Positions 1,539 through 31,451 of a stretch of 61,323 nucleotides of DNA are shown one piece after another. The notes under the pieces were generated by a model. It saw only the letters and a list, made by a program, of their open reading frames with translations, was not told the origin of the DNA and did no database searches. Source of the DNA: a virus; the IMG/VR virus record IMGVR_UViG_3300045051_000399, positions 1-61,323 of that record; one strand, written 5' to 3'. The translations under genes were made by a program, and so were the position numbers. How positions within the stretch are numbered: position 1 is the stretch's first letter; every line of letters begins with the position of its first letter.

Positions 1539-1554
1539 GAGAGACGAGGGACGT

Positions 1555-2026: not shown

Positions 2027-2029
2027 CGC

Positions 2030-2045: not shown

Positions 2046-2060
2046 AGGGAGTGACGCATC

Positions 2061-3047
2061 ATGGCAAACAGACCGACACCGGACACGCCGAGCGTTTCGC
2101 TTGAGCAGCTACCGGACATCAACGCCGCGACGATCGCGATCTCGATCTCGATGGAGCACTTTTACAATCGGCGGCGCGTGTCGTCGTCGATTGTCGGCGA
2201 CGGCAGCTCGACGCCGGTTGCGGGCACGGTGGCCGAGGCGATCAAACGCGATACGACGCTCTTCGGCGTCACAAAGCGACTGCTCGACTGCGACGAGCTG
2301 CGCGCGATTAATCACGAGCAAGCGGCCGTGAAAGAGTGGACGTACCGCACGGCACTTCCGTCGTTTCTCAAGCCGGGGATCCACTTGATCCCGATCGCGC
2401 TCGTGACGCGCTTCGAGGAGGAGCTAAAGGATCGCAAGGCGCGGATCGCCGGCCACGTCGAGCTGCTCGCGGCCGTGCTCGAAGAGCGGATCGAAGCGAT
2501 GAAGCCGCGCCTCGCCGATCAGTTCAACCGGGCCGATTATCCGAGCGTCGAAGAGCTGCGCGAGGGCTTCTCGCTCACGTGGCGCTATCTCAAGCTCACG
2601 GCCGACGATCGGCTCGAAACGCTCTCGCCGGCGCTCTTCGAGGAGCAACGGCAGATCATCTCGAACGCCGCGCAAGAGACGGCGCGCGAGGTTCGCGGGC
2701 TCATCCGGGCGCAAGCGTTCGAGGCCGTCAAGCGGCTCTCCGAGCGCCTCGACGCCGTGACGAGCAAAACGGGCCGGCCGTCGCACGTGCACGATTCGGC
2801 CGTGTCGGCTCTGCATGAGTTTCTTTCGCTCGTGCCGCATCGCAACGTGACGGGCGACGCGAAGCTCACGAAGGCGCTCGAACAGCTTCAGGCGAGCATG
2901 CAGGGCGTAACGGCCGAGCAGCTCAACGACGATCAGGCGCTCCGCGCGAAGATGGCCGGCCTCATGGGCGACGTGGCCGGCAAGCTCGAAGCGCTCGTGC
3001 AAGAGGCTCCGGTGCGCTCGATGAAGTTCCGCAACGAGGCCGCGTGA
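2061..3047 (+). CDS. Hypothetical helical protein downstream of the AAA module
   Basis: A 328-residue protein, ATG behind a GGGAG ribosome site. After a short polar N-terminus it is mostly alpha-helical with charged heptad-like stretches (FEEELKDRKARIAGHVELL, EAVKRLSERLDAV), so coiled-coil association is likely. No catalytic motif, membrane segment or cysteine cluster is visible. Large helical proteins of unknown function often sit beside phage AAA ATPase modules and could be partners or substrates; that is inference. Its stop overlaps the next start (TGATG). Confidence 0.7.
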   Translation: MANRPTPDTPSVSLEQLPDINAATIAISISMEHFYNRRRVSSSIVGDGSSTPVAGTVAEAIKRDTTLFGVTKRLLDCDELRAINHEQAAVKEWTYRTALPSFLKPGIHLIPIALVTRFEEELKDRKARIAGHVELLAAVLEERIEAMKPRLADQFNRADYPSVEELREGFSLTWRYLKLTADDRLETLSPALFEEQRQIISNAAQETAREVRGLIRAQAFEAVKRLSERLDAVTSKTGRPSHVHDSAVSALHEFLSLVPHRNVTGDAKLTKALEQLQASMQGVTAEQLNDDQALRAKMAGLMGDVAGKLEALVQEAPVRSMKFRNEAA

Positions 3048-3313
3048 TGGCGTTCAATCGCGCGGCGTATCGCGTGCACGGGATGACGACGAGCGCCGGG
3101 CCGCGCCCGGCGCGGAAGTGGTACAGCGAGCGCGCCGTGCGCGACTTGCTCGACACGGTGCGCGATCTTGCCGATCACGTCGAGGAGATGGGCTGCACGT
3201 GCGGCCCTGGCGTGCGCGAGCGGCACGGGCACGGTCGCGAGTGCATGGGCGTCGGCTATGCGCGCAAGGCGCGTCGCCAGCTTGCCACGTGGCGACGGAG
3301 GCTCGATGTCTAA
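3047..3313 (+). CDS. Small hypothetical protein with Cys/His pairs
   Basis: An 88-residue basic protein. CTCGPG and RHGHGRECMG segments (two cysteines, then two histidines and a cysteine) suggest a small metal-binding site. ATG 3047 overlaps the preceding stop; a GTG three bases upstream is an alternative start. The 3' end overlaps the next gene by 8 bp. No family recognised. Confidence 0.6.
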   Translation: MAFNRAAYRVHGMTTSAGPRPARKWYSERAVRDLLDTVRDLADHVEEMGCTCGPGVRERHGHGRECMGVGYARKARRQLATWRRRLDV

Positions 3314-3602
3314 GCGCATCGCACCGGAGCCGCCGCCGCCGGCCGTCAGTGCTCGCCCGAAGTGCGCCGGATGCCGTCGCGCGCTCCGGCCGCACTTCGA
3401 GCCGACGAGCAGCGGCGGCAAACGCCTCGGCGGGGGCGCGTGGCTCACGTTCTCGCCGGGCCGGGATCCGTTCGGCTGGTTCGGCAAGTACGTCGGGTAT
3501 CCGCGCGACGCGCCGATCTTCTGTCGGATGGATTGCGCGCTCGCGTTTGCCGTGTACGTCTATCGCGAGCTGAAAGCCGGCAAACTGAGGAGGAGCGGAT
3601 GA
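3306..3602 (+). CDS. Hypothetical zinc-ribbon-like protein
   Basis: A 98-residue protein with CAGC near residue 17 and CRMDC near residue 77, four cysteines that could bind one zinc ion. Between them lies a Gly/Trp/Phe-rich stretch (FGWFGKYVGYP). ATG 3306 overlaps the upstream gene by 8 bp, and the stop overlaps the next ATG. Likely a small nucleic-acid-binding protein; function not assignable. Confidence 0.6.
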   Translation: MSKRIAPEPPPPAVSARPKCAGCRRALRPHFEPTSSGGKRLGGGAWLTFSPGRDPFGWFGKYVGYPRDAPIFCRMDCALAFAVYVYRELKAGKLRRSG

Positions 3603-3841
3603 GCCCAAACGAGCCGGCCCGCGAGATCAGTCGCGAGGCCGAGGCGCTGTACCTCAACGATCCCGTGTTTCATGCGATGACGCACGCGATCGGCGGTTGC
3701 TTGGCGACGTACTCCGAGGCGCTAATCCTCGACGCGGTTCGCATCGCGGCCGAGCGTGCGACGCATCTCGATCGCCGGCCGCGCGGATACTTTTGTGCTC
3801 ACTGCAAGATGCTCTGGCCGCTAGGAGGGCCGCGATCATGA
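3599..3841 (+). CDS. Small hypothetical protein with C-terminal CxxC
   Basis: An 80-residue protein with an acidic helical N-terminus and an HAMTHAI-type helix (VFHAMTHAIGG). The same VxHAMTHAI peptide occurs in the protein at 15825-16238, pointing to a shared motif or old duplication. It ends with CAHCKMLWP. Overlaps neighbours by 4 bp on both sides. Confidence 0.6.
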   Translation: MSPNEPAREISREAEALYLNDPVFHAMTHAIGGCLATYSEALILDAVRIAAERATHLDRRPRGYFCAHCKMLWPLGGPRS

Positions 3842-4272
3842 GCCGCAAGCAAGCGAAGTATACGATCGCCCGGCGCACGGTGACACGCGGCGGCGCGATC
3901 GTCGTCGAGAAGTTCCGGCGATGCTCGGCGTGTAAACATATCAACGGGCTAACGCTCGTCGTGTGCCGGCGATGCGGAGCCGAGATGCGAAAGCCGCCGC
4001 GACGCGGCCCGCTCGCGCCCGACGTGCAGCTCAAGATCGCCGAGCAGCAGCTTCGAGATTGGCAACGACGCCTCACGCGGGCGACAACCGGGATCAAGGC
4101 CGCGATGGCGCGCGTGCAGAAACTTCGTACCGCGATTGCCGTCGCCGTCGCCGTGCGACAGGAGCGCGCGAAACAGCAAACGATCCTCGCCGGGGGCCGC
4201 TCGATGCGGATCCGGCCCGAGGCAACGCCGGAGCCCGAGGGCTCCATCGGAGGGACAAATGCCGCTCAATGA
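3838..4272 (+). CDS. Zinc-ribbon protein with C-terminal coiled coil
   Basis: A 144-residue basic protein. CSACKHINGLTLVVCRRC (about residues 26-43) gives a classic two-CxxC zinc ribbon, followed by an R/K/Q-rich helical segment that could form a coiled coil. Probably nucleic-acid binding. ATG 3838 overlaps the preceding stop (ATGA) and the stop overlaps the next gene by 14 bp. Confidence 0.65.
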   Translation: MSRKQAKYTIARRTVTRGGAIVVEKFRRCSACKHINGLTLVVCRRCGAEMRKPPRRGPLAPDVQLKIAEQQLRDWQRRLTRATTGIKAAMARVQKLRTAIAVAVAVRQERAKQQTILAGGRSMRIRPEATPEPEGSIGGTNAAQ

Positions 4273-4402
4273 CTTCGTGAAGCAGTTCGAGGCAACCGTC
4301 GGCGTGCTCAACGCCGAGCGGTTATGGATCATCGTGTCGATCGTCGGCGTGATCGTCGTGATGCTGGCGCTTGAGAACGCGCTTCGGGAGCGTAAGCGAT
4401 GA
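4259..4402 (+). CDS. Small single-pass membrane protein
   Basis: A 47-residue protein with one hydrophobic segment (LWIIVSIVGVIVVMLALE) preceded by a polar amphipathic stretch and followed by the basic tail RERKR, giving an N-out/C-in type topology. Start overlaps the upstream gene. One of several tiny membrane proteins in the early arm; function unknown. Confidence 0.6.
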   Translation: MPLNDFVKQFEATVGVLNAERLWIIVSIVGVIVVMLALENALRERKR

Positions 4403-4575
4403 GAGCCGATCGCGCCGAGCTGCCTACGTATGCGCGGGAGCGGTTGCGCCGCCGATGGCGAGGCTTCGAGCTGCTCGCGTTTGTGGGGCTCTGGCTCGTT
4501 GTCCTGGCGGTACAAGTCGCGTGGGCGGGCGCGCTCGTCTATATCGTGTGGCACTTCATCGCGAAGTACTGGTGA
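4399..4575 (+). CDS. Small membrane protein
   Basis: A 58-residue protein with a basic N-terminus (RERLRRRWRG) followed by one long or two short hydrophobic segments rich in Trp (ELLAFVGLWLVVLAVQVAWA). ATGA overlaps at both ends couple it to its neighbours. Could influence the host envelope; no family recognised. Confidence 0.6.
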   Translation: MRADRAELPTYARERLRRRWRGFELLAFVGLWLVVLAVQVAWAGALVYIVWHFIAKYW

Positions 4576-4883
4576 TGGGCGGCACGCTTCGCGCATCGGA
4601 GGCCGTCGCGTACGCGAATCAAGTGCGACGGCTCGGGCTTTCGACGCTGGCGGATTTTCTCGAAGAGGTTGCGGCCGATGCGATTCGGACGCCGCCGATC
4701 TCGCCGACGGAGATCGTCGAGGTTCGCGTCGAGTTTGTCGGAGGCGAGCTTCGGCATTCGGCCCTCGTGTGCGGAAATCTCGCGCGTAGGCTGATCGCGG
4801 AATGCCTCGCCGGCCTCGACGGCGACGCGCGCGCAAAAGAGCTTGCGCGACTCACCGGCGGTGCACTGCTCCGCCGTTTGTAA
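4575..4883 (+). CDS. Hypothetical protein
   Basis: A 102-residue alpha/beta protein; a central strand IVEVRVEFVGGELR is followed by helices. No motif recognised. The stop codon TAA forms the first bases of the TAATACAAT box at 4881-4889, so this gene may end the first early transcription unit. Confidence 0.6.
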   Translation: MGGTLRASEAVAYANQVRRLGLSTLADFLEEVAADAIRTPPISPTEIVEVRVEFVGGELRHSALVCGNLARRLIAECLAGLDGDARAKELARLTGGALLRRL

Positions 4884-4890
4884 TACAATG
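4881..4890 (+). promoter_or_regulatory. Candidate promoter -10 box (TAATACAAT)
   Basis: TAATACAAT at 4881-4889 lies 29 bp before the next ATG. Close relatives of the same string occur at 12230, 22727 and 59764, each at a gene boundary. No good -35 hexamer is visible 16-18 bp upstream, so recognition may need an activator, or the string may be coincidental. Confidence 0.35.
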
Positions 4891-4917
4891 CCGGGCTTCC
4901 GGAGAGCACAGACGAAC

Positions 4918-5157
4918 ATGGGCAGACCACAGAAGCGCCGACGCGGCCCGCGCTCCGCCTACGGGCCGAAAACGGAAACGCTCAACCTCCGCGTGACGAA
5001 GGTGGCAAAGAGCCTCGTCACGATGGGCACCGAGCGCGACGGCTTGAGCGAAAGCGACTGGTGCGAGGCGAAGTTTCGCGGCGAGGATCCGGCGCGCGTC
5101 GCGGCAAAGCTCCGGGCCGACGAAGAGCGAGAGCAGCTCGCAACCGAGGAGGCATGA
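4918..5157 (+). CDS. Small basic hypothetical protein, possible DNA-binding
   Basis: A 79-residue protein with a strongly basic N-terminus (MGRPQKRRRGPRSAYGPK), then LNLRVTKVAKSLV and a charged helical C-terminus. The opening resembles small ribbon-helix-helix-type or plasmid-encoded regulators (a basic arm, then a beta strand), but the match is weak. It is the first gene after the TAATACAAT box. Confidence 0.55.
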   Translation: MGRPQKRRRGPRSAYGPKTETLNLRVTKVAKSLVTMGTERDGLSESDWCEAKFRGEDPARVAAKLRADEEREQLATEEA

Positions 5158-5471
5158 TGCATCGTGTCGAAGTCACGTACGAAGCCGCGCCACTGCACTA
5201 TGCGCCCGAGCGGCCGGGCGGGCACTTTGTCGTCGAAGTGCCGCCGATTGCGAAAACGGTGCTCAAGAGCGGCGGGATTCGCGTCACGTATTACCGCACA
5301 TTGAGCGATGACGAGCTTGCCGGCGAGCTGCGCCTCCTGGCGCGGCGCGAAGAGCAGCTCGCGCCGATCCCGCCGCGCATCGATCGGCGCGTCTATGGCG
5401 TGCCGTATCTGACGCCGGTACTCGCGACGATCGCGCGACTCGACGAATTGATCGACATCGACGGGGATTGA
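5157..5471 (+). CDS. Hypothetical protein
   Basis: A 104-residue protein; ATG 5157 is preferred over ATG 5154 because it gives better spacing from GAGGAGG. N-terminal half is beta-rich, C-terminal half helical and acidic (ATIARLDELIDIDGD). No motif recognised. It is followed by a strong hairpin and a 147-bp gap, so it probably ends a unit. Confidence 0.6.
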   Translation: MHRVEVTYEAAPLHYAPERPGGHFVVEVPPIAKTVLKSGGIRVTYYRTLSDDELAGELRLLARREEQLAPIPPRIDRRVYGVPYLTPVLATIARLDELIDIDGD

Positions 5472-5482
5472 CGGGATAGGAG

Positions 5483-5518
5483 GGAGCCGGCAGCTTCCGG
5501 CAGAAAGCCGCCGGCTCC
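5483..5518 (+). terminator. Strong GC hairpin, possible terminator
   Basis: Arms GGAGCCGGC (5483-5491) and GCCGGCTCC (5510-5518) pair perfectly over 9 bp, with an inner GCTT/AAGC pairing extending the stem. No T-tract follows, so intrinsic termination is uncertain. It could instead be a processing or attenuation structure before the recombination block. Confidence 0.5.
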
Positions 5519-5618
5519 TCGGCGAGCTGTGAGAATGCAGCTCACCGGACGCGCGCCAAATGGTACCACGAGGCCGCGTAGCGATCGAAACCCCTGCCCG
5601 GTAGCGGAGGGAGCCCAC

Positions 5619-6626
5619 GTGTCAAAGAAACGCGCCAGCAAGCCGCCGGCGAGCCCGAGCACGTCTCTCGTGCACCGGCCGCCGGCCTCGGCCGCCGACG
5701 TGCCCGTGCGCGTCGAGATCGTGACGCCAACTTCCGGCCCGGCGAGCGTCTTGCCAGATTTGAGAACGGTTGAGCCTCGCGAAGATCTGCAACCGATGGA
5801 TCCGGCGGCCGTGTACTTCGGCGGCACCGGCCTCGCCGATCATTCGTTCACAAAGCGCCAGCAATCGATCCTGCTGAAGCCCGTCGATCTCGCGGAGCTT
5901 GACGTGCTCCCGACGGGCGAGGTCTACATGAGCGCCGTGCACGTGCGCCGGCGACTGTGGGCGGCGTTCGGCGTCGGTGCGTTCGGGCAGCGGCCGCGCT
6001 CGATGCCGAAGCAACAAGGCTCGACCGTCATGCAATTGTGGGAGCTGGTGATCCTGGGGCGATCGGTCGATACGACGTGGGGCGAGGCCGAGTACCACGA
6101 GGATAACGTGCGGATGTCGTATGCGAGCGCGCTCGAAGCTGCGAAAAGCAACGCGCTCACGCGAAGCTGTAAGGTGCTCGGCGTGGGCTCCGAATGCTGG
6201 GATCGAAAGTTTTGCGCCGACTACCTCGCAACGCACGCCGTGAAAGTGCACCGGCACAAGGTGAAAGATCCGCGCTACGCGTGGCAGTGGCGACGGCTCC
6301 ACGCGCCGTCGTTCTATGACGAGGATGCCGTCGCCGAGGATATGCCGCGCGACGTGATCGCGACGTGGCACGCGAGCCGGGCCGAGCAACCGCGCGTCGA
6401 GGCGCAACCGAGCGCGGCGGATCTTGACAAGCCGCTCACCGAGCCACAGCTCGCGCGACTGTGGGGATTGATGCGCGCGCACCACGTGACGATCGAGGCG
6501 TTGCACGACTATCTCGGTAAGCACTACGCGTACACCGTGCGCGGCAAGGCGAAGCCGAGCGGCCGATTGATCAAGCGTCTGGATGCCGACGCAATCGAGG
6601 CATGGATCGCCAATGGCGGCGCGTAA
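5619..6626 (+). CDS. Rad52-like single-strand annealing protein
   Basis: A 335-residue protein from GTG 5619, chosen because GCGGAGGGA lies 8-10 bp upstream; a start at 5529 would add an unlikely basic leader. The segment around residues 157-195 (WGEAEYHEDNVRMSYASALE, then AAKSNALTRSCKVLGVGSEC) has the E-x-A-x-T/S-x-A-L-x-R-x-x-x-x-L-G pattern of Rad52-family and related phage annealing proteins. The C-terminal 65 residues (TEPQLARLWGLM...LIKRLDADAIEAWI) resemble the helical tail found in several phage annealases. The adjacent gene encodes a RecB-like nuclease, completing a two-component recombination pair. The first 60 residues are proline-rich and probably disordered. Confidence 0.65.
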   Translation: MSKKRASKPPASPSTSLVHRPPASAADVPVRVEIVTPTSGPASVLPDLRTVEPREDLQPMDPAAVYFGGTGLADHSFTKRQQSILLKPVDLAELDVLPTGEVYMSAVHVRRRLWAAFGVGAFGQRPRSMPKQQGSTVMQLWELVILGRSVDTTWGEAEYHEDNVRMSYASALEAAKSNALTRSCKVLGVGSECWDRKFCADYLATHAVKVHRHKVKDPRYAWQWRRLHAPSFYDEDAVAEDMPRDVIATWHASRAEQPRVEAQPSAADLDKPLTEPQLARLWGLMRAHHVTIEALHDYLGKHYAYTVRGKAKPSGRLIKRLDADAIEAWIANGGA

Positions 6627-7227
6627 TCGGTTCGATCCCGTCGAGCATCGGTACTTCGCCGGCGCGCGCGAGCTGATCTCGGTAACGACGCTCCTCAAAA
6701 ACGAGGGCCGGATCGACGATCGATACTTCACCGAAGAGAGCCGCGAGCGCGGCTCGTGGGTCCATGCGCGGGCGACGGAGATCGATCTCGGTTTGCCCGT
6801 GCGCGACACGGTGAAACGGTTCGACGATGCCGGCGTGTGGATCGGCGATCTCGTTGCGCCGGAAGAGTGGCGGGCGCGCCTCGACGGGTACCTCGCGTTT
6901 CGCTCGCTGGTACCGTTGTCATTCCTGACGGTCGAGGAGCCGATCTTTCGTCCCGATCTCGGGCTCGGCGGCCGGCCCGATCGTACCTTCGAGCTGCGCG
7001 GCCGCGCCGGGATCCTCGACATCAAAACCGGGCCGCGCGAGACGTGGCACGGCGTACAGATGGCGCTATACGACGTAATGCTCGGCGGCCTCCCGCCGGG
7101 CACTCGGCACCGCGCCGGCGTGTATCTCGACGAGCGCGGCGGTTTCACGTTTCATCTTTTCGACAGTCGCGAGGATGTCGTCGAGGCCTTCAACCTCGCG
7201 GCCCTCGCAAGGGAGCGTTTCGCATGA
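6613..7227 (+). CDS. RecB-like PD-(D/E)XK exonuclease
   Basis: A 204-residue protein. RGSWVH (about residues 46-51) matches the RecB-nuclease RG-x-x-H motif. GGRPDRTF (119-126) supplies the first acidic residue, ILDIKTG (134-140) the D-x-K pair, and QMALY (149-153) the Q-x-x-x-Y motif. These are the signatures of the phage/RecB exonuclease family that resects double-strand ends for annealing. ATG 6613 overlaps the annealing protein by 14 bp, and the coiled-coil gene follows directly. The size is normal for compact phage exonucleases. Confidence 0.8.
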   Translation: MAARNRFDPVEHRYFAGARELISVTTLLKNEGRIDDRYFTEESRERGSWVHARATEIDLGLPVRDTVKRFDDAGVWIGDLVAPEEWRARLDGYLAFRSLVPLSFLTVEEPIFRPDLGLGGRPDRTFELRGRAGILDIKTGPRETWHGVQMALYDVMLGGLPPGTRHRAGVYLDERGGFTFHLFDSREDVVEAFNLAALARERFA

Positions 7228-20657: not shown

Positions 20658-20866
20658 GCGCCGACGACGAGCCGCGCATTTGGATCACGCAAGGCCCGAG
20701 CGGCGTGACGGAGAAACAGCTTCTCGACGCGCTCGACGAGCTGCGCGCCCGCAATAGTTACGTGCTCTCGTGCGGGCACGTGCACGACGAAGGCCGCCAG
20801 AGCGGGCACGTCTGGTGCGCCGCGTGCGGGCGTCACGTGCCGATGTATCCGAAGCCGCTCACGTGA
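20654..20866 (+). CDS. Small zinc-finger-like protein
   Basis: A 70-residue protein from GTG 20654. LSCGHVHDEGRQSGHVWCAAC gives Cys-x-His and C-x-x-C ligands; compare the protein at 17507. The stop overlaps the terminase start (GTGA). ATG 20645 is an alternative start. Confidence 0.5.
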   Translation: MSADDEPRIWITQGPSGVTEKQLLDALDELRARNSYVLSCGHVHDEGRQSGHVWCAACGRHVPMYPKPLT

Positions 20867-22722
20867 TCGAGCCGACACCGACGGAGGCGCTCGCGGCCCG
20901 TGTGCGCGCGAGCTTCGCGCCGCCGTCCGAGCTGCGCGTGTCGGAGTTTTCCGATCAGACGGTGATCGTCACGAGCGGGCCGCTCGCGGGTACGCACTGG
21001 CAAACCGACTTCGCGCCGTATCAACGCGGGATCCTCGACGTGTTTCACGAGCCCGGCATCGAGATCGCCGTCGTGATGGGCTCCTCGCAGTGGGGCAAAA
21101 CGAGCATCGCCGTCAATCTGTGCGCGTACCATATCAAGCACGATCCCTGCTCAATTCTCGTCGTCGAGCCGACAGAAGATCCAATGGCGCGCGACTTCGC
21201 AAAGAATCGACTTGATCCCATCATCGACGCGAGCCCGGAGCTAAGCGACGCCGTGCGGCGCAAGCGCAACAAGCGCTCGGGCGGCACGGTGCTACAGAAA
21301 ACGTTTCGGGGCGGCTCGCTCTCGATCGCCGGCGCTAATTCGGCGTCGTCCCTGGCGGCGCGCCCGGTACGCGTGCTGATCTGCGATGAAGTCGATCGGT
21401 ATCCCGCCGAGCTGCCCGGCGAGGGCGCGACGCTCGCGATCGCATTCAAGCGCACGACAACCTTTCGGCGACGGCGGCGGATCCTCTTGCTCTCGTCGCC
21501 GACGCTCGCCGGCTCGCCGATCCATGAATGGTGGTCGAGCGGCGATCAGCGTCGGTACTACGTGCCGTGCCCGAGCTGTAAAAAGGGCTTCGCGTACGAG
21601 TGGCAGCTCGTGAAATGGGAGCGGGATCCCGATCGGCCGAGCACCGCGCGCATTCATTGCCCGAGCTGCGGGCACGGGCTCGATGATGCCGAGCGCGTCG
21701 CCATGCTGAAGTTCGGCACGTGGATCGCCGACAAGCCCGATCGCGACGACGCCTCGATCGTGTCGTTCCATCTATGGGAGGCGTATAGTCCATTCTCGTC
21801 ACTGAGCGAGATCGTGACGAACTTCCTCCGCGCGCGTCGGAAACAAAAAGAGGGCGATCGCGCGGAAATGCACACGTGGATCAATACGACGCTCGGCGAG
21901 CCCGTCGAGCCCGACGAGGGGGAGGGCGCGGAGCCGCACGCGCTCCTGGCGCGGCGCGAGGAGTACGCGGCTCCGGTGCCGACGGAGGCCGTCGTGCTCA
22001 CCGCCGGCATCGACATTCAGGACGATCGGATCGAGGGCCTCGTGATCGGCTGGGGCATCGGCGAGGAAAGCTGGCTCGTCGATCGGTTCTATTTCGCCGG
22101 CGACACCGAGGGGCCGGAGCCCTGGCGCGAGCTGGAGCAAGCGCTCGAAAACGAATACCGTCACAGCTCCGGCCCGACGCTCCCGATCGCGTGCGCGTGC
22201 ATCGACTCCGCCGGGCATCGCACGACGATCGTGTACGACTTCGTGGGCCGGCATCCGCGCACGTTCGCGATCATCGGGCGGGATGGCGAGCGGCCGATCG
22301 TCTCGTCGCCGACGCCGCGCTCGTGGGGGCGGAATGGCCGGCAAGTGCCGCTCTATACGATCGGCGTCGATTCGGCCAAGGCGTTATGGCAATCGCGCTT
22401 GATTCTCACCGAGCACGGGCCGGGCTTCGCGCATCTCCCGATCGCGCCGTGGGCCGACGAGGAGCTATGCCAGCAGCTCACGAGCGAGCGCTTGATCAAG
22501 CGGTTCAAGAAAGGCGTGCCGCGTATGGAGTGGATCAAGCGGCGGCCTCGCAATGAGGGCCTCGACTGCGCCGTATACGCCGTCGCCGCGCTCCGGTTGC
22601 TTCATCCCGACTTGAAGCTCCTCGCCGATCGCCTCGCGAATCCGAACGCGCGCACGCCGCCGCCGCCGCGCAAGCCCGCCGGCTTTCTCGGGCCGTCGCG
22701 TCGCGGATGGCTCCGGCGGTGA
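20863..22722 (+). CDS. Terminase large subunit, lambda GpA-like
   Basis: A 619-residue packaging ATPase/nuclease. Walker A-like GSSQWGKT (73-80) and Walker B VLICDEVDRYP (171-181) are the GpA-family signatures. Two CPSC pairs in the middle form the family's zinc region. AGIDIQDDRIEG (about 381-392) is the RNase H-like nuclease core with the acidic residues that cut concatemers. The length matches GpA-type terminases (about 620-670). The gpW-like and portal genes downstream follow lambda order. A GpA-type enzyme usually implies site-specific cos-type ends, which would fit a circular assembly. Confidence 0.9.
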   Translation: MIEPTPTEALAARVRASFAPPSELRVSEFSDQTVIVTSGPLAGTHWQTDFAPYQRGILDVFHEPGIEIAVVMGSSQWGKTSIAVNLCAYHIKHDPCSILVVEPTEDPMARDFAKNRLDPIIDASPELSDAVRRKRNKRSGGTVLQKTFRGGSLSIAGANSASSLAARPVRVLICDEVDRYPAELPGEGATLAIAFKRTTTFRRRRRILLLSSPTLAGSPIHEWWSSGDQRRYYVPCPSCKKGFAYEWQLVKWERDPDRPSTARIHCPSCGHGLDDAERVAMLKFGTWIADKPDRDDASIVSFHLWEAYSPFSSLSEIVTNFLRARRKQKEGDRAEMHTWINTTLGEPVEPDEGEGAEPHALLARREEYAAPVPTEAVVLTAGIDIQDDRIEGLVIGWGIGEESWLVDRFYFAGDTEGPEPWRELEQALENEYRHSSGPTLPIACACIDSAGHRTTIVYDFVGRHPRTFAIIGRDGERPIVSSPTPRSWGRNGRQVPLYTIGVDSAKALWQSRLILTEHGPGFAHLPIAPWADEELCQQLTSERLIKRFKKGVPRMEWIKRRPRNEGLDCAVYAVAALRLLHPDLKLLADRLANPNARTPPPPRKPAGFLGPSRRGWLRR

Positions 22723-22759: not shown

Positions 22760-22957
22760 ATGGCATGGACGCAAGCCGACATCGACACGCTCAAGCAAGC
22801 ACTTATCGATCGGAAGGGCGCGCGCTCGATCGCGTTCTCGGATCAAGTCGTGACGTTCGACTCGATCGACGACATGCTCAAGCTGCTCTCGGTAATGACG
22901 GGCGAGGCAACCGGCGGAAGCCGCACGCGCTACGCACAGACACGCAAAGGGTGCTGA
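22760..22957 (+). CDS. gpW-like head-tail connector protein
   Basis: A 65-residue protein. MAWTQADIDTLKQALIDRKG, then IAFSDQVVTFDSIDDMLKLL, is the helix-beta hairpin-helix pattern of the lambda gpW family. It sits between terminase and portal as in lambda. gpW completes the head so that tails can join. Confidence 0.7.
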   Translation: MAWTQADIDTLKQALIDRKGARSIAFSDQVVTFDSIDDMLKLLSVMTGEATGGSRTRYAQTRKGC

Positions 22958-22963
22958 TCGCGA

Positions 22964-24652
22964 ATGGTGCCCGGCCTCACGTCGATCGTCATTCCCACGT
23001 ATAACCATGCAACACAGCTCGCCGACGCGATCGGAAGCGCCTTGCTTCAAACCGCGCCCGTTGAAGTGATCGCGATCGACGACGGCTCCACGGATCACAC
23101 GAGCGACGTGCTCCGGAAGTATCCGCAAGTGCGCGCGTTGAAGCTCCCGCACTGCGGGCCGAGCCTCGCGCGTAACGCGGGCCTCGATGCGGCGGCCGGC
23201 GAATACGTGATGTTGCTCGATGCCGACGACGTGATCGCGCCGGAGAAAGTCGCGAAGCAACGCGCCGAGCTGGAGGCCGTGCCCGAAGCGGGCTGGTGCT
23301 TGTGCGACGTGCGGATCGAGGATGCTTGCAAGGGCCGCACGATCAACGCCTCCGAACAATACGACTACGCGCGGATCGGGATCGACGGTTGGATCAAGTC
23401 GAAGCTTCAAGCCGGCCCGTTTATCCCGGTGATGTCGCCGCTCGTGCGGCGCTCGGTGATCGAAGAGCCGACGCCGATCCGGTTCGACGATCGCCTCGTG
23501 CCCGAGGATTACCACTTCTGGCTGAGCATCGCCGGCCGCGCTCGCGTGCGTTACGTGCCCGACGTGCTCGCGACGTATCGACACGGGCGCACCGGCCGAA
23601 GCCGGTTGCCGAAAACGGCCCGCGCCGTCGAGGCGAATATCGAGCTGCCGTTGCGGCTCAATCTCGGTTGCGGCGCGCCGGGCACGCGCTCCTGGCATCC
23701 GATGCGCGGCTTCGTGAATCTCGACAAGTCGATGGGCTGGCGCTTCGAGGATGGCTTGCGCGACTTCGCCGATCACTCCGTCGCCGGGATCACAATCTCG
23801 CATGCGTTGATGTATCTGCCCGAGGCCGACTGGCCGCGCTTTCTCTCCGAGTGCTCGCGCGTGCTTGCCGATCACGGCGTGCTCCGGATCACGGAGGATC
23901 ACACGGAGCATCCCGAGAGTGCGCGGCGCGGCGGCTGGCGCGGGAGCGAGCCGGCCGTCACGCTCACGACGCCGAGCTTTGTCGCCGAGCAGCTCGCGCG
24001 GGCCGGCCTCGTGGCCGAACACGTGGACGCCGAGCGCTCGACGTATCTCGATCGCTCGTTGATGCAAGCGCAACACGGCAAGCATCCCGATGTTTTTTTC
24101 ATCGAGGGCCGGAAATTGCCCGGCACGCTATTCTCGCCGCACAACGACGACGAGACGCTTTTCGCGGCGTTTACGATTCTGCGGTTTCGGCCGCGCGTCG
24201 TCGTGTGCTTCGAGAGCGTGCGCGACTACGGCGATCCGCGTGTGCGGGAAAATGAAACGCGCGAGGCAATGACGGTGCTCGGCGGCGGCGCGGTCGAGCA
24301 GTGGGCATGCCGTACCGGGATCGGTAGCGCGCACGTCGGCGAGCTGGTCGAGCAGATGCAAGCGTTCGACGCACGCGCGCATCCGATCCGAGTGTGGGCT
24401 CCGTCGCGCGAGGCATCGCATCCCGATCACGTCGCCGTTGCCGAAGCCGCCGCGCTCGTGTTCGACGGGCGCGTGCGGCACTTCCACACGTACGACGCCG
24501 GAGGCAAGGTGCGACGCGGCAAGCCCGTCGAGTACGAAGTCGAGTGGATCGAGCAAAAGCATCGGGCCTTATTGCGTTACGAGACACAAATCAAGCACGC
24601 GCGCGCTCACACGTTTTTCGCGTGGGATCTCACTGAATACGAGGAGGCGTGA
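22964..24652 (+). CDS. Three-domain fusion: GT2 glycosyltransferase, SAM methyltransferase, PIG-L/LmbE deacetylase
   Basis: A 562-residue protein. Residues 5-215: GT-A glycosyltransferase family 2, with IPTYN (10-14), DDGSTD (39-44), ARNAGLDAA (69-77) and the metal-binding DAD (86-88). Residues 225-375: class I methyltransferase with LNLGCG (232-237) and a type-11-like SHALMYLPEADWPRFLSE segment. Residues 383-560: PIG-L/LmbE-type N-acetylglucosamine deacetylase with SPHNDDE (391-397; family consensus HPDDE) and SHPDH (485-489) as zinc ligands. All key residues of each domain appear present. It lies inside the head operon beside further transferase genes, suggesting a sugar is built and then methylated and/or deacetylated. 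The acceptor could be virion protein, DNA or host glycan. Confidence 0.8.
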   Translation: MVPGLTSIVIPTYNHATQLADAIGSALLQTAPVEVIAIDDGSTDHTSDVLRKYPQVRALKLPHCGPSLARNAGLDAAAGEYVMLLDADDVIAPEKVAKQRAELEAVPEAGWCLCDVRIEDACKGRTINASEQYDYARIGIDGWIKSKLQAGPFIPVMSPLVRRSVIEEPTPIRFDDRLVPEDYHFWLSIAGRARVRYVPDVLATYRHGRTGRSRLPKTARAVEANIELPLRLNLGCGAPGTRSWHPMRGFVNLDKSMGWRFEDGLRDFADHSVAGITISHALMYLPEADWPRFLSECSRVLADHGVLRITEDHTEHPESARRGGWRGSEPAVTLTTPSFVAEQLARAGLVAEHVDAERSTYLDRSLMQAQHGKHPDVFFIEGRKLPGTLFSPHNDDETLFAAFTILRFRPRVVVCFESVRDYGDPRVRENETREAMTVLGGGAVEQWACRTGIGSAHVGELVEQMQAFDARAHPIRVWAPSREASHPDHVAVAEAAALVFDGRVRHFHTYDAGGKVRRGKPVEYEVEWIEQKHRALLRYETQIKHARAHTFFAWDLTEYEEA

Positions 24653-25188
24653 TGCCGGGTCCATTCAAGCTGTACCCAGAAGAGCGGCACTGGTGGAGCT
24701 TCAACGACTACGGTGCCGTGCTCGACGTGATGACGATGTACAAGCCGAAGCGTGTCGTCGAGTTTGGGCCGGGCTCCTCGACGCTTGCGCTCATCGAGGG
24801 CGGAGCCGAATCGATCACGATGCTCGAAGATAATCCGGATTGGGCCGGCGTGTACCGTGAACGGTTGGCGCGCAAGTATCCGACGCCAGAGTATCCGACG
24901 ATCGTTGAGATGGTTGAGTACACGTGGTGCAAGCCGCTCCGGATCCCGAAGCTCGATAAGGCGCGCTTCGATCTCGCGCTCATCGACGGGCCGCACGGCA
25001 CACAAAGCCGGCCGCCGGTGCTCGCGTGGTGCTTGAAGCGGTGCGATCTCGTGCTCATCCCGACGGAGGATGGCGACGGCGGCCTCATGCGAACGGCGAT
25101 CAGGGCCGAAGCGAAGAAAGCGCGCCGCTCGTCGGTGCAGTGGATGGAAACCGGGCCGCTCTCTGGCGGCTTTGCGCTGATCTCCTGA
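24652..25188 (+). CDS. SAM-dependent methyltransferase-like protein
   Basis: A 178-residue Rossmann-fold protein. VVEFGPGSSTLAL (about 36-48) is motif I, ITMLEDNPDW the motif II acidic strand end, and FDLALIDGPHG the motif IV-like segment seen in FkbM/class I small-molecule methyltransferases. ATG 24652 overlaps the previous stop (TGATG), with GAGGAGG upstream. Probably modifies the product of the adjacent glycosyltransferases. Confidence 0.7.
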   Translation: MPGPFKLYPEERHWWSFNDYGAVLDVMTMYKPKRVVEFGPGSSTLALIEGGAESITMLEDNPDWAGVYRERLARKYPTPEYPTIVEMVEYTWCKPLRIPKLDKARFDLALIDGPHGTQSRPPVLAWCLKRCDLVLIPTEDGDGGLMRTAIRAEAKKARRSSVQWMETGPLSGGFALIS

Positions 25189-25190
25189 TC

Positions 25191-25907
25191 ATGCTGATTG
25201 TCTTGGCGTGGAGCTGGGGCGGTCTGTTCGGGCCAGAGTATCCGAATCGACTTCGGGCCTCGCTCGCGCGCCGGTTGCATATCGCGCACAAGCTCGTGCT
25301 CGTGACGGATCGTACCGACGGGCTCGATCCTGGCATCGAGGCGATCCCGATGCCGACGACGTTCGCGGAAACCCCACGGTGCCGCCGCCGCATGCAACAG
25401 TACGATCAGACGTTTACCGATCCGCTCGGCCGCCGGATCCTCGGGCTCGATCTCGATCTCGTATTCGTGGATGACGTGACGCCGCTCGTACTCTGCGACG
25501 ATCCGATCAAGTGCTGGAAAGTCGGGCATGCCGGCGTGTACTCCGGAAGCTTCGTGCTTTTCAATTCCGGCGCGCTCGATGGCGCGTGGCAACAATTCGC
25601 CGCCGCGCCCGAGGCGTGGCCGCGCTCGTTGCAAAGATCGGGCACGCCGTCGGATCAAGCGATGATCAATGCGTGGCTCGCCTCGCAACCGCCGATCGCG
25701 CACTGGACGGAGCGAGACGGATTCGTCACGTACTACGGGCGCGGATACGAGCGCCTCGAACATTTAGGCGTTGGGCCTCGGTATCCGCACTTGCCGGCCG
25801 GTGCCCGCGTCGTCGTGCTCGGCAGTGCCGATAAGGCCGTGATGGATCGCGCCGAGTTCCCGTGGATTCGCGAGCACTGGCGCGACGTGCCGGCGAGGAT
25901 CTCGTGA
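25191..25907 (+). CDS. Glycosyltransferase (GT-A, GT8/GT32-like)
   Basis: A 238-residue protein. RRILGLDLDLVFVDDVTPLV (81-100) carries the D-x-D of nucleotide-diphospho-sugar transferases (D87, D89). HAGVYSGSFVLFNSGALDGAW and TPSDQAMINAWL match the later part of the family, where N-S-G and D-Q-A contact the acceptor. Shorter than most host enzymes; soluble. Overlaps the next start (GTGA). Confidence 0.7.
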   Translation: MLIVLAWSWGGLFGPEYPNRLRASLARRLHIAHKLVLVTDRTDGLDPGIEAIPMPTTFAETPRCRRRMQQYDQTFTDPLGRRILGLDLDLVFVDDVTPLVLCDDPIKCWKVGHAGVYSGSFVLFNSGALDGAWQQFAAAPEAWPRSLQRSGTPSDQAMINAWLASQPPIAHWTERDGFVTYYGRGYERLEHLGVGPRYPHLPAGARVVVLGSADKAVMDRAEFPWIREHWRDVPARIS

Positions 25908-26503
25908 CGCCGATCTTTCCCGTGATGCCGTTCGCGCTCGATATGAATCTCGGGCGCGCGTACAACGAGGCGATGAGTCTCGCGCCCGAGGATGCGTGGC
26001 TCGTGTTTCTCGATCACGACATGATGCTCACGACGCGCGAATGGTTTCGGCAGATCGAGGAGGCGATCCGGTTCAAGCCCGACGCCGGCGCGTTCGTGGC
26101 GTGCGCGAATCGCATCGCGCCGGAGTGGCAGAAAGCCGGCCCGGTCAACATCCACGAGATCCGGCATCATCGCTCATTCGGCAAAGAGCGGTTGAAGGTT
26201 CGTACGCTGCTCGACGTTACGGATACGAAAGGTTTCGGCGGCGTGCTCTTCGCGGTGAGCAAGGCGAGCTGGCGAGAAGTCGGCGGCTTTCGCGACGGGA
26301 TGCTTTGTGTCGATCACGGCATGCACTTCGCGCTTCGCGACGCCGGCAAGCGGATCTATTTGATCGAGGGCTTGTACGTGTACCATTGGCGGCGAGCATT
26401 CGGCGACGAGCTGCCAGAAGAAACCCCACGCGTCGCCGACTGTCCCTGTCGCGGCCCTGAAGCGATGCCGACTGAGCGACTAACCTTGCCGGAGCGAATA
26501 TGA
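25904..26503 (+). CDS. Glycosyltransferase family 2-like protein, short form
   Basis: A 199-residue protein from GTG 25904. AWLVFLDHDMMLTTREW (31-47) has the acidic D-H-D of GT-A enzymes. TKGFGGVLFAVSKASWREVG followed by DGMLCVDHGMHFALRDAG and a VYHWRR end match the later half of GT2 enzymes. The usual N-terminal nucleotide-binding strand (V-x-[IV]-P-x-[YF]-N) is largely missing, so it is either a minimal form or depends on a partner. Confidence 0.65.
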   Translation: MTPIFPVMPFALDMNLGRAYNEAMSLAPEDAWLVFLDHDMMLTTREWFRQIEEAIRFKPDAGAFVACANRIAPEWQKAGPVNIHEIRHHRSFGKERLKVRTLLDVTDTKGFGGVLFAVSKASWREVGGFRDGMLCVDHGMHFALRDAGKRIYLIEGLYVYHWRRAFGDELPEETPRVADCPCRGPEAMPTERLTLPERI

Positions 26504-28044
26504 GCACTTTGCGCGTGCGTCCGACGTGGCTCGATCGCGTGGTGATGCAATTCTCGCCGGCCGCCGGCGTGCGGCGCATCCGCAACCGGGCCGCGCTCGC
26601 GTTGATGGAACGGCACTTCGAGGCAACGACGGCCGGCCGCCGTACGGGCACGTGGAGCAAGCCCGCGAGCGATGCGAACGCCGCGATCGGGCCGGCCCTG
26701 GCGGGCCTCCGACAGAACGCGCGCGATCTCGTGCGAAACAATCCGTACGCCGAAAGCGCGCTCGCGACGATCGCGGATCATACGATCGGCTGGGGCATCA
26801 CGGCGAAGCCTGCGAAACCGAATGCGAAGCTCCTCGCACTGTGGCGCTCGTGGGCCGAAACGACGGCATGCGATGCCGACGGCCGCGAGAATCTGTACGG
26901 GCTTCAGCAGCTCGCTATGCGAACGGTGGTCGAGTCGGGCGAGGTAATCGTGCGGCTCCGCCGGCGGTTTCTCGAAGATGGGTACCCCGTGCCGTTGCAG
27001 ATTCAAGTGCTCGATCCCGACTACCTCGACTCGTCGAAAGACACGCTTACCACAGCACCGCCGGCCCGAGGCCGCGTGATACAGGGCGTGGCGTTCGACG
27101 CGCTCGGCAAGCGGATCGGGTACTACCTGTTTCCGGAGCATCCCGGCTCCTCGCTCGGCATGCAATCGTCAACACTGGTGCCAGCCGAGAGCGTGTTGCA
27201 TATTTACTGGCGCAAGCGGCCGGGACAAGTGCGCGGGTATCCCTGGTTTGCGCCGATCGTGCTTCGCATGCGCGACTTCGACGCGTTCGAGGATGCAACG
27301 TTGATGAAGCAAAAGATCGCCGCGTGTCTCTCGGTGATCACGAGCGATCCCGACGGCTCGGCGACGGCCCTCGGCGCGGCCGACGACTCCGCCGATCCGC
27401 CGATCGATCTCTTGGAGCCGGGCGCAATCCTCAACGTGCCGCCGGGCCGTTCGGTGAACGTCGTCAATCCGCCGACGACGGGCGATTACGAGGCGTACTC
27501 GAAAGGGCAGCTCCGCGCGGTTGCGACGGGTATGGGGATCCCGTACGAGGATCTCACCGGCGACTATACGGGCATGCCGTTCTCGGCGGCGCGCCGCTCG
27601 GGACTGCGACACGAGAGCCGCGTGCGGAATTGGCGATACAATCTGATCATTCCGCAATTCTGCGATCCCACGTGGGGATGGTTCATGCAAGCGGCGGCAA
27701 TCCTCGGCATCGGCTCGGCCGACGATCGCGCGGAGTGGACGCCGCCGCCATTGCCCGTCGTCGATCCGAGCATCGAGACGCTCGCCGATCAGCGGCGGAT
27801 CCGGAGCGGGCTTGCGAGCTGGAGCGAGACGGTTCGCGAACGTGGGTACGATCCGAAAGATCTACTCGACGAGATCAAGGCCGACTTCGATAAGTTCAAG
27901 GCGGCCGGCCTGATCCTCGACATCGATCCCGCGAACATGACGCAAGCCGGGCAGCTTCAAGGCGTCGCCGCCGCCGAGGCGAAAGCCGACACGCCGGATC
28001 CGCTCGCGGCCGCGCACGCCGCCGGCGAGGGGGCGGCCGCGTGA
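26500..28044 (+). CDS. Portal protein, lambda gpB-like
   Basis: A 514-residue protein. Family features: RRIRNRAALALMERHFEA near the N-terminus, NNPYAESALATIADHTIGWG (about 80-100), VLDPDYLD, and the central GIPYEDLTGDYTGMPFSAAR followed by RSGLRHESR. The C-terminal domain has PDPLAAAHAAGEGAAA-like low complexity. The length is normal for the lambda family. It forms the dodecameric DNA channel at the capsid vertex. ATG 26500 overlaps the upstream glycosyltransferase by 4 bp, so both are translated from one message. Confidence 0.9.
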   Translation: MSTLRVRPTWLDRVVMQFSPAAGVRRIRNRAALALMERHFEATTAGRRTGTWSKPASDANAAIGPALAGLRQNARDLVRNNPYAESALATIADHTIGWGITAKPAKPNAKLLALWRSWAETTACDADGRENLYGLQQLAMRTVVESGEVIVRLRRRFLEDGYPVPLQIQVLDPDYLDSSKDTLTTAPPARGRVIQGVAFDALGKRIGYYLFPEHPGSSLGMQSSTLVPAESVLHIYWRKRPGQVRGYPWFAPIVLRMRDFDAFEDATLMKQKIAACLSVITSDPDGSATALGAADDSADPPIDLLEPGAILNVPPGRSVNVVNPPTTGDYEAYSKGQLRAVATGMGIPYEDLTGDYTGMPFSAARRSGLRHESRVRNWRYNLIIPQFCDPTWGWFMQAAAILGIGSADDRAEWTPPPLPVVDPSIETLADQRRIRSGLASWSETVRERGYDPKDLLDEIKADFDKFKAAGLILDIDPANMTQAGQLQGVAAAEAKADTPDPLAAAHAAGEGAAA

Positions 28045-28787
28045 CGCCTCGGCTCGAAGCGGTCTGGTTCGAGGCGAACGATCGATCGGCGCGATGGTCG
28101 AGGATGGCGCGCGTCTTAGCGCTCACCGCCGGCGAGCAGCTCCCGAGCTGGGCCGTCAACGTGTACGCCATGCCCGACACGCCGATCGAGAGTGACATCG
28201 ATCGTCGGCAGATCATCGCGAATAGTCGGAAGCTGTGGGCGTGGAATAACACGATCCGATCGGCGGAGGATGGCGAGCGGATCCTCCTCATCGACGCGGA
28301 TGCCGCGATCCTCTTGCCGCTCGATGACGTGTGGGATCTCGACTTCGATCTCGCGTACACGAAGCGGCCGAGCACGGCAAAGTTTCCATTTAACGGCGGC
28401 GTGCTTTTCGTGCGCGTGTCGAACGTGACGCGAGCGTTTTTTGATCTGTGGGAAAGAGAAAATGCGCGCATGCTGGTCGAGCCCGCGCATCATCGGAAGT
28501 GGCAAGCGCGGTATGGCGGGATCAATCAGGCGAGCTTCGGGTACCTCACACATAGTCGGAGTTTCGATCTAAAGCTGCACGCGCTCCCGTGTTCGGAATG
28601 GAATTGCGAAGATAGCGGCTGGTCGCAATTCGATCCGGACACGACGCGGATCCTCCATATCAAGAGCGCGCTTCGGCTGGCGTGTTTCCTGGGCGTGGCC
28701 GAGCGGGCAACCGGGCTCGGCCCGCTCGCGAAGATCTGGCGCGAGTTCGATCGACGCGCCTCGGGAGCCCTCACGAGGACAGCATGA
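28041..28787 (+). CDS. Glycosyltransferase-like protein (GT-A with DxD)
   Basis: A 248-residue protein from GTG 28041. ERILLIDADAAILLPLDDVW (79-98) provides the D-A-D metal site (D85, D87), and FPFNGGVLFVRVSNVTRAFF is the typical N-G-G-V acceptor-side motif of GT8/GT34-like enzymes. It follows the portal gene with a 4-bp overlap, so transferase genes flank the portal on both sides. Confidence 0.65.
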   Translation: MTPRLEAVWFEANDRSARWSRMARVLALTAGEQLPSWAVNVYAMPDTPIESDIDRRQIIANSRKLWAWNNTIRSAEDGERILLIDADAAILLPLDDVWDLDFDLAYTKRPSTAKFPFNGGVLFVRVSNVTRAFFDLWERENARMLVEPAHHRKWQARYGGINQASFGYLTHSRSFDLKLHALPCSEWNCEDSGWSQFDPDTTRILHIKSALRLACFLGVAERATGLGPLAKIWREFDRRASGALTRTA

Positions 28788-29023
28788 GCCACGCACAACG
28801 CATGATCCGATCGCACGACTTGACCGATCGCGCCGTTCGCTCGCCAAAGGCCGCCGAGCCGCAATCGCTGAGCCCTCAAGAGCTGGCGGCGGAGTGGGGA
28901 TGTCACGTCGATACCGTCTATCGCGACATCCGCAAGCGAGCGCTTAGGGCCTATCGACTGCCCGGCGGCTCGCTCCGCATCCGCCGCGAAGATGCGGATC
29001 GCTACGGGCGGCCGCTCTGGTAA
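28784..29023 (+). CDS. Excisionase/MerR-type helix-turn-helix protein
   Basis: A 79-residue protein. LSPQELAAEWGCHVDTVYRD, then RALRAYRLPGGSLRIRREDA, is a complete winged helix-turn-helix of the excisionase (HTH_17) family. No integrase is present, so it is more likely a regulator or packaging factor. Overlaps both neighbours by 1-4 bp. Confidence 0.65.
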   Translation: MSHAQRMIRSHDLTDRAVRSPKAAEPQSLSPQELAAEWGCHVDTVYRDIRKRALRAYRLPGGSLRIRREDADRYGRPLW

Positions 29024-29432: not shown

Positions 29433-31451
29433 GTGGGAAGCCCGGCCAATAACGATCGTTTTATCGATCTCCCGGCCCTTGAGTTCCGCGCCGTCGTCGC
29501 GCCGAAATCCATCGACAACGAGAAGCGCACCGTCGATCTGACGTTCAGCACGGGCGCGCCCGTCGAGCGTGTTGATTGGGGAACGGGCGAACGCTTCATC
29601 GAACGACTTTCGATGGATCCGGCGCACGTGCGGCTCGAACGACTCAACAACGGCGCGCCGCTCCTCGACACGCACGGCGGGTACTCGATCGCGAGCATGC
29701 TCGGCGCGGTCGTCCCTGGCACGGCGAAGATGGTTGCCGGGCAGGGCCGAGGCACGGTGCAGTTTTCGCGGCGTGCCGAAGTCGAGCCCGTGTGGCGCGA
29801 CGTACAGGACGGGATCGTTTCGAGCGTGAGCGTCGGCTATCGTGTGCACGCGTACGAAGAGCGGGCCGCGAAAGCCGGAGCACTCAAGACACGTACGGCC
29901 GTCGATTGGGAGCCATACGAAGTCTCGATGGTGCCGATGCCGGCCGACACCGGCGCGCACACGCGGAGCGAATCAGGACCGGAAACCAATCGTTGCATCG
30001 TCCGAACAATTGAGGAGATCCCGACAATGGAACGTACCCCGTCAGAGTTTGTCGCCGAGGATCCGCTCGCGGCCGGGCTCGCGGCACCGGCAACGCCGGC
30101 ACCGCCGGCCGCTCCGGCAACGGAGCCCACGGATCGCGATCGCGGCGCGATCTCCGAACGTGAGCGCACGCTCGGGATCATCGCCGCCGTGCGCGGTGCG
30201 CGACTTCCACAGGCAAAGGCCGACGCGTACATCGCGAGCGGTCGTACCCTGGTGGATATTCAGTCGGAGATCTTCCGCGAGCTGGAGCGGCGCGATCCGC
30301 CGGTGCCGAATCTGATCAGCAACAACGGCGGCACCGTTGAGATGAACGGGCCGGATCCAAATCTGCACTTGCGCGCCGGGATCGAAAATGCGCTCTTGCA
30401 CCGCATCGCGCCGCAAGCGTTCAAGCTCGAAGATGTCGGCCGCGAGTATCGCGGGATGACGCTCCTCGACATCGCGCGCGTGTATCTGCACGCACAGCGG
30501 ATCCGCACGACGGGCATGTCGAAAATGGATCTCGCCGGCCTCGCGCTCGGGCTCAACGTGCGTGCCGGGTATCACACGACTTCCGATTACCCGAACTTGC
30601 TCGCCGACGTGGCGGCAAAGACGCTGCGCGCCGCGTATGAAGCCGCGCCTCAGACGTTCACGGTGATCGGCCGGCGCGTGACGCTCTCCGACTTCAAGCC
30701 CGTGAAGCGCTTGCAGCTCGGCGAGGCTCCGTCGCTGCTCGAAGTCAACGAGCACGGCGAGTACAAGCGCGGCACGATCGGCGAGGGAAAAGAGCAATTC
30801 CAGCTCGCGACGTACGGCCGCGTGTTCGCGATCACGCGCAAGGCGCTGATCAACGACGACACCGACGCGTTTTCTCGAGTACCGGCGCTCTTCGGGCGTT
30901 CGGCGCGCAACCTCGAAAGCGATCTCGCGTGGGAGCAGATCACGGCGAATGCGGCAATGGGCGACTCGATCGCCGTATTCCACGCATCGCACGGCAACCT
31001 CGCGGACGACGGAGATCCCATCTCGATCGACACGCTCGGCGCGGGCCGCGCCGCCATGCGGTTGCAGACCGGGCTGGACGGCGCGACGTACCTCAACATC
31101 GTTCCGAAGTACTTGCTCGTGCCGACGAGCCTCGAAACGGTGGCCGATCAGTTCGTGAGCAACATTACGCCGGCCGTTGCCGGGCAGGCGAATCCGTTCA
31201 CGGGCCGGTTGACGGTCGTGCCCGAGCCTCGGCTCGACGCAACCTCACAAATCGCGTGGTATCTGGCGGCCTCGCCCGATCAGATCGACATGCTCGAATA
31301 CGCGTACCTTGAGGGCGAGGATGGACCGGCGATCGAGTCGCGGATCGGCTTCGACATCGACGGGCTAGAAATCAAGTGCCGGCACGACTTCGCGGCGAAG
31401 CTGATCGATTATCGCGGCTTCTATCGCAACGACGGCGATCAGGTGAGCTAG
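29433..31451 (+). CDS. Fused prohead protease and major capsid protein
   Basis: A 672-residue protein. Residues about 14-178 are an HK97-type prohead protease: LLDTHGGYS (78-85, catalytic His81), GIVSSVSVGYRV (127-138, catalytic Ser region) and WEPYEVSMVPMPAD (159-172). Residues about 190-300 are Ala/Pro/charged and helical, like a scaffold segment. Residues about 310-672 are an HK97-fold major capsid protein (KLEDVGREYRGMTLLDIARV; YGRVFAITRKALINDDTDAF). Cleavage after assembly would release the capsid subunit. Start GTG 29433 has a poor ribosome site, so the exact N-terminus is uncertain. Confidence 0.85.
   Translation: MGSPANNDRFIDLPALEFRAVVAPKSIDNEKRTVDLTFSTGAPVERVDWGTGERFIERLSMDPAHVRLERLNNGAPLLDTHGGYSIASMLGAVVPGTAKMVAGQGRGTVQFSRRAEVEPVWRDVQDGIVSSVSVGYRVHAYEERAAKAGALKTRTAVDWEPYEVSMVPMPADTGAHTRSESGPETNRCIVRTIEEIPTMERTPSEFVAEDPLAAGLAAPATPAPPAAPATEPTDRDRGAISERERTLGIIAAVRGARLPQAKADAYIASGRTLVDIQSEIFRELERRDPPVPNLISNNGGTVEMNGPDPNLHLRAGIENALLHRIAPQAFKLEDVGREYRGMTLLDIARVYLHAQRIRTTGMSKMDLAGLALGLNVRAGYHTTSDYPNLLADVAAKTLRAAYEAAPQTFTVIGRRVTLSDFKPVKRLQLGEAPSLLEVNEHGEYKRGTIGEGKEQFQLATYGRVFAITRKALINDDTDAFSRVPALFGRSARNLESDLAWEQITANAAMGDSIAVFHASHGNLADDGDPISIDTLGAGRAAMRLQTGLDGATYLNIVPKYLLVPTSLETVADQFVSNITPAVAGQANPFTGRLTVVPEPRLDATSQIAWYLAASPDQIDMLEYAYLEGEDGPAIESRIGFDIDGLEIKCRHDFAAKLIDYRGFYRNDGDQVS

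Follow-up and report, generated by a model that had tools for sequence, protein, structure and literature searches.

We identified in a soil phage a gene (22964..24652, + strand) whose single reading frame joins a glycosyltransferase (GT2), a class I methyltransferase (MT) and a PIG-L deacetylase. The gene sits between the DNA-packaging and portal genes of the window, by which we mean the whole 61,323-nucleotide stretch of viral DNA analyzed, and forms with a second methyltransferase gene and three GT-like genes a cassette set among the terminase, portal and capsid genes. The fusion is kept in 11 of 13 phage lineages (window included). We put at about 0.5 the probability that its product works as a soluble, three-step glycan enzyme and that the cassette's glycan is carried by a virion protein.

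Domains of the fusion protein

From its ATG start the frame is open throughout and encodes 562 amino acids. The GT2 domain, of GT-A fold, covers residues 1-217 (22964..23614, +) and carries the motifs DDGS (residues 39-42), DADD (86-89) and PED (180-182). It is followed by a class I SAM-dependent MT domain (residues 226-386; 23639..24121, +) with LNLGCG (232-237) and VNLD (251-254), and by a PIG-L/LmbE deacetylase domain (residues 387-562; 24122..24649, +) with H393, D395, D396 and H489. The first-pass annotation had read these three domains, in this order and with their key residues, from the letters of the DNA, and the Pfam matches and motif positions bear it out. Glycos_transf_2 (PF00535) matched residues 7-111 (E 1.4e-25), and the third domain, on which the earlier reading had been made to depend, was recovered as PIG-L (PF02585) at residues 389-497 (E 3.5e-9; 37.7 bits against a cut-off of 28.2). 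The Methyltransf_11 match (residues 267-308, E 2.5e-4; 22.1 bits against a cut-off of 21.2) covers only part of the domain and is weak when the window protein is taken by itself. Across the 13 lineages, both Methyltransf_11 (best E 1.5e-8) and PIG-L (best E 1.5e-13) were found in every one at E <= 0.01, the L016 PIG-L protein scoring 25.2 bits, under the 28.2 cut-off. Shuffling the protein 20,000 times never reproduced the ordered set IPTYN (10-14), DADD, LNLGCG, PHNDDE (392-397) and HPDH (486-489), which rules out a chance origin of the motifs.

The full-length structural model had a mean pLDDT of 77.1 and was poor around residues 209-258; its Foldseek and VIA lists were dominated by the GT domain. 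This domain combines the PF00535 match, a DxD motif and the GT-A fold of GT2 enzymes. TarP (6h4m), an enzyme of prophage origin that adds GlcNAc to wall teichoic acid, topped its VIA matches (Z 23.1, rmsd 2.5, 197 aligned), tied within 1 Z with WrtF and others. Structures of TarP and TarS with bound UDP-GlcNAc were among the matches, and fucosyl- and rhamnosyltransferases scored like TarP; as modeled, the fold of this domain points to no one donor sugar. Folded alone, the MT domain (pLDDT 84.4, pTM 0.83) adopted a Rossmann-like, class I methyltransferase fold with the glycine-rich motif I and an acidic residue after strand 2. Its VIA matches included 3dli (Z 13.8, rmsd 2.7, 138 aligned), the sugar N-methyltransferase KedS8 (Z 11.7, rmsd 2.8, 136 aligned) and TylM1 (Z 11.5, rmsd 2.7, 133 aligned). 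Both N- and O-methyltransferases were represented, the latter by many entries, and the predicted fold is compatible with either chemistry without deciding between them. Besides its PF02585 match, the PIG-L domain has the HxDDE and HxxH residues of PIG-L/LmbE enzymes, which provide the zinc and catalytic residues of the family. Its profile came nearest in the PDB to the GlcNAc-malate deacetylase BshB1 (6p2t, E 9.2e-7) and also matched 2ixd (E 1.5e-6).

Fused and split forms across phages

Scanning IMG/VR viral contigs with the fusion protein and an alignment returned 65 loci, 18 of which match the whole protein and 47 the GT region only. The window and these 18 contigs (19 sequences) reduce to 13 lineages once near-identical groups are merged (window/L001/L002; L010/L015/L019; L012/L013/L014). 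The ten other fused lineages share 54-65% identity with the window protein (the L008 contig ends inside PIG-L). The two remaining lineages are L016 and L017; there the frame ends behind the MT domain, and a separate PIG-L gene overlaps it by 4 bases at the same joint. Residues D39-S42, D86-D89, P180-D182, N233-G237 and N252-D254, as well as H393, D395-E397, H486, D488 and H489 of the PIG-L part, are invariant in all 11 fused proteins. Aligning all 13 lineages likewise shows no change in the MT motifs LNLGCG and VNLD or in four PIG-L residues, namely the H, the two D and the last H. Each of the three domains is under purifying selection, with dN/dS values of 0.13-0.46 per domain in five of five pairs each (15/15 comparisons). 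A frameshift or assembly artifact joining separate genes, which the first-pass annotation had named as a possible source of error, is thus ruled out by the ten further fused lineages and by selection on all domains.

When the viral contigs were scanned with the MT and PIG-L alignments separately, these 18 contigs came back together with two stand-alone MT relatives (L182 and L183) and five further PIG-L relatives (L196-L200), none of the added relatives being fused to a GT2 in the frames read. The stand-alone MT relatives lie at L182:2302-6642 and L183:5128-7272, and the PIG-L relatives of L196-L199 near position 8001. GT-like genes occur near these relatives in L182, L183 and L198. The ten neighbors scanned include, in L182, a Methyltransf_24 gene along with two GT2 genes and, in L198, three genes of GT-like or DUF6625 type. 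The modules are, therefore, also found unfused in other viral sugar loci.

The first-pass annotation had called the combination unusual. This holds among the named phages and bacterial genomes searched, but the arrangement recurs in 13 phage lineages. The fusion protein matched 89 of 50,697 phage records, none with one place covering at least 80% of it; the 40 matches listed all fell within residues 1-262, and the part from residue 225 on had no match at E <= 0.01 among named phages. No paper on a GT-MT-PIG-L phage fusion was found by title or abstract start among the open-licence papers searched. When bacterial genome contigs were searched with two peptide patterns, the best 80 of 486 relatives all matched the GT domain, with no MT or PIG-L match at E <= 1e-3 in the flanks examined. 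A whole-fusion profile (E <= 1e-30) matched 35 of 398 genomes of the G001 phylum, with 40 of 40 matches within profile positions 1-230. The MT-PIG-L profile (E <= 1e-6) matched 16 of 299 genomes of that phylum, always in the PIG-L half, except that the G251 match begins slightly ahead of that half. In 396 genomes of the G002 phylum this profile (E <= 1e-8) found nothing, nor did the MT-PIG-L protein in six genomes, both searches being run without a positive control. A bacterial origin of the whole fusion was, hence, not found in the genomes searched, which gave GT-only or PIG-L-only matches, three of these in proteins that begin with PIG-L.

These three bacterial proteins (L167:1523-3142, L166:5000-9079 and L165:5-4208) resemble the phage fusion in carrying PIG-L and GT2 in one polypeptide, and the GT2 domain of L167 is 32% identical to that of the phage over 206 positions. 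They differ in having PIG-L first and GT2 second and no methyltransferase family at E <= 1e-3, whereas the phage protein has the reverse order with the MT between. Two of the three have further domains (a GT1-type and a second GT2 domain; RgpF and HAD).

The cassette and its exchange between phage backbones

The placement of the fusion inside a head-gene region, also proposed at first pass, stands, with packaging genes upstream and portal and capsid genes downstream. The small terminase gene starts at 19728 and precedes the terminase large subunit (20770..22722, +; GpA_ATPase and GpA_nuclease, phrog_15) and a small gene resembling the head-tail adaptor Ad1 (22760..22957, +; phrog_2545, E 5e-10), located upstream of the fusion. 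Downstream are a second methyltransferase-like gene, MT24 (24649..25188, +; 179 aa; Methyltransf_24 at E 0.0048, below the cut-off), and the GT-like genes A (25191..25907, +; 238 aa from the ATG at 25191) and B (25904..26503, +; 199 aa). Gene A matched the glycosyltransferase phrog_1962 (E 9.7e-5, run with a longer N-terminus) and gene B the glycosyltransferase phrog_14179 (E 1.6e-16, run from 25862); the GTG start of B at 25904 is proposed from the GTGA overlap. The portal gene (26500..28044, +; Phage_portal_2, E 4.2e-98) separates them from GT-like gene C (28041..28787, +; 248 aa; Nucleotid_trans at E 0.0055, below the cut-off). Next come the head protease/major capsid protein gene (29433..31451, +; phrog_4523, E 1.6e-219), a head decoration gene starting at 31514, and connector and tail genes. 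Start and stop codons overlap between the fusion and MT24 (GTGA), A and B (GTGA), and B and portal and portal and C (ATGA and GTGA). The GT genes are, as in virion-glycosylation loci, linked to virion genes. An excisionase-type HTH gene (28682-29023; phrog_66, excisionase and transcriptional regulator) lies between gene C and the capsid gene and has relatives in L009, L010, L011, L014, L015 and L019. Elsewhere in the window, 5529-6626 encodes an Mgm101p-type protein (Pfam E 9.3e-32), a likely recombinase, and the next gene, at 6583, is exonuclease-like.

Two phages with related portals, LPPA33 (44%) and PY223 (41%), have TerL, a small gene and the portal in succession with nothing between. Gene A turned up in 12 of the 13 lineages, genes B and C in 11 each and MT24 in nine. 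Genes A, B and C are present in every lineage whose contig extends far enough (L008 ends in the fusion and L003 in gene A). The 21.6 kb examined of L016 and L017 showed no MT24. The order of the genes varies: gene C precedes the fusion in L009, L010, L011 and L014; in L009, L010 and L014, MT24 precedes the terminase (the L011 contig starts inside the terminase); and L016, L017 and L018 carry the fusion, A and B ahead of the terminase rather than between terminase and portal. The cassette is not bound to one type of capsid: the window's capsid family was found in seven of the 13 lineages, and L004 lacks it although its sequence reaches 5.3 kb past the portal.

Alleles of the cassette have also been exchanged. 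L017 and L018 share 80-81% identity in the large terminase, 81% in the portal and 80% in gene B, but only 58% in the fusion. The GT-MT tree joined L016 and L017 (99/94), whereas the terminase tree joined L017 with L018 (100/99) and L007 with L016 (100/100). The GT-MT data rejected the clade of L017 and L018 (p-AU 0.0026) and that of L007 and L016 only marginally (0.045), both p values being optimistic because the clades were picked after seeing the trees. As judged from sequence comparisons, gene order and alleles thus shuffle between phage backbones. Exchange between different backbones suggests selection on the type of glycan. L017 is split and without MT24 in the stretch examined, and L018 is fused and has MT24. 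Just upstream of the L017 cassette (L017:9448-9753) we noted by eye an RRM RNA-binding-like protein, odd in a phage.

Proposed function and precedents

LmbE/PIG-L enzymes strip the acetyl group from GlcNAc conjugates built by a glycosyltransferase, as in the BshA/BshB, MshA/MshB and PIG-A/PIG-L pairs. The fusion of a GT2 to a PIG-L domain therefore suggests that a GlcNAc-like sugar is added and then deacetylated. We propose that the protein acts in the cytoplasm. Its GT2 domain would draw on the host UDP-sugar pool and attach a sugar, probably GlcNAc or a different acetamido sugar, to an acceptor; the PIG-L domain would take the N-acetyl group off this sugar, and the MT domain would add a methyl group either to the amine so exposed or to a hydroxyl. 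In the NodB-NodS pathway, for example, a methyl group is placed on the freed amine. The first-pass annotation had proposed that one polypeptide attaches, methylates and deacetylates a sugar; the presence of the three activities' domains supports this in part, whereas action on one and the same sugar in that order is no more than conceivable. Transfer, deacetylation and methylation is at least as likely an order as transfer, methylation and deacetylation, since the known substrates of PIG-L enzymes are conjugates of GlcNAc type. MT24 and the three GT-like proteins would cooperate and be made together with the portal. The resulting glycan most likely decorates a virion protein, a target suggested by the position of the genes and by analogy to capsid-modifying viruses, and could change as the cassette and the alleles within it move between phages. 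A more specific version, in which a phage-specific trifunctional enzyme places a de-N-acetylated, methylated (possibly N-methylated) and positively charged amino sugar on virion proteins, from a recombining "glycotype" cassette whose fused and split alleles are swapped while the backbone is kept, is offered tentatively. Counting against the proposal are the varying capsid type beside the cassette, the position of the fusion ahead of the terminase in L016, L017 and L018, and fold matches that single out neither a donor sugar nor N- or O-methylation.

The cassette could instead modify the envelope polysaccharide of the host, in the manner of GtrB or TarP, and so block superinfection or change the receptor. 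The best PHROGs of the GT domain are indeed of GtrB-like O-antigen conversion (phrog_22739, E 3.3e-8; phrog_841, E 1.5e-7; residues 392-499 match phrog_11796, of unknown function), and TarP shares the top of its VIA matches. Yet the five cassette proteins have no hydrophobic stretch above KD 1.6, the scanned subset of window proteins includes no flippase-like gene, and the overlap with the portal gene makes late expression most likely, all of which leave host-surface modification a doubtful reading. Attachment of a modified amino sugar to the bases of the phage DNA, as a guard against restriction, has a precedent in the DNA glycosylation described for phages (PMC9614988), but it is quite improbable here: the scanned subset of window proteins held no base-hydroxylating or nucleotide-modifying enzyme, and a location among head genes would lend it no support. 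Alternatively, joint expression or assembly could be the reason for the fusion, with the three domains working on separate sugars or on some free small molecule. PIG-L is its own gene in two of 13 lineages, and relatives of the MT (L182 and L183) and PIG-L (L196-L199) stand alone in other viral contigs. Against this, the split genes of L016 and L017 still overlap and keep their key residues, and the fusion of GT2 and PIG-L in reverse order in the three bacterial proteins hints at coupled steps. We consider separate substrates unlikely.

Precedents for such decoration come from several viruses, although phage virion glycosylation is known from few isolates in the accounts consulted. The chlorovirus PBCV-1 encodes A064R, a soluble, three-domain protein of 638 aa whose GT-GT-MT domains build and methylate, in a system that includes A061L, the glycan of the major capsid protein, and a second methyltransferase acts separately (PMC9614988, PMC5408694). 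A064R differs from the GT2-MT-PIG-L fusion in its domain order, its GT34-like first domain, its lack of a deacetylase and its algal virus origin. The mycobacteriophages Che8, Corndog and others of cluster O, and Myrna likewise encode GTs that modify capsid and tail tube, with three tandem GTs downstream of an O-methyltransferase in cluster O (PMC11600133, PMC12363180). These are, unlike the fusion, separate genes, and the passages available mention no deacetylase. A Che8 GT was among the BFVD fold matches of the fusion (E 3.7e-8). The glycan genes of the Stenotrophomonas phages DLP3 and DLP5 place a PIG-L (gp96), a methyltransferase (gp99) and a GT-domain protein (gp102) close to one another in a cultured phage, though unfused and interspersed with WcaG-like and WecE-like genes (PMC7326821). 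The same three activities are, hence, already known as nearby separate genes in DLP3, with relatives in DLP5, and the fused form is the variant. It provides a sequence marker for a chemically specific pathway of transfer, deacetylation and methylation in uncultured phages and a single protein on which to test the three steps, with natural split versions as controls. Tetraselmis viridis virus S20 (L168, NC_020840.1) has no fusion and no annotated PIG-L at the corresponding place but resembles the cassette in that several GT genes, along with one for a methyltransferase, immediately precede its head closure and tail genes. The run (1125-6708) is annotated as GT, sialyltransferase and methyltransferase, and the virus encodes a relative of gene A at 28.7% identity.
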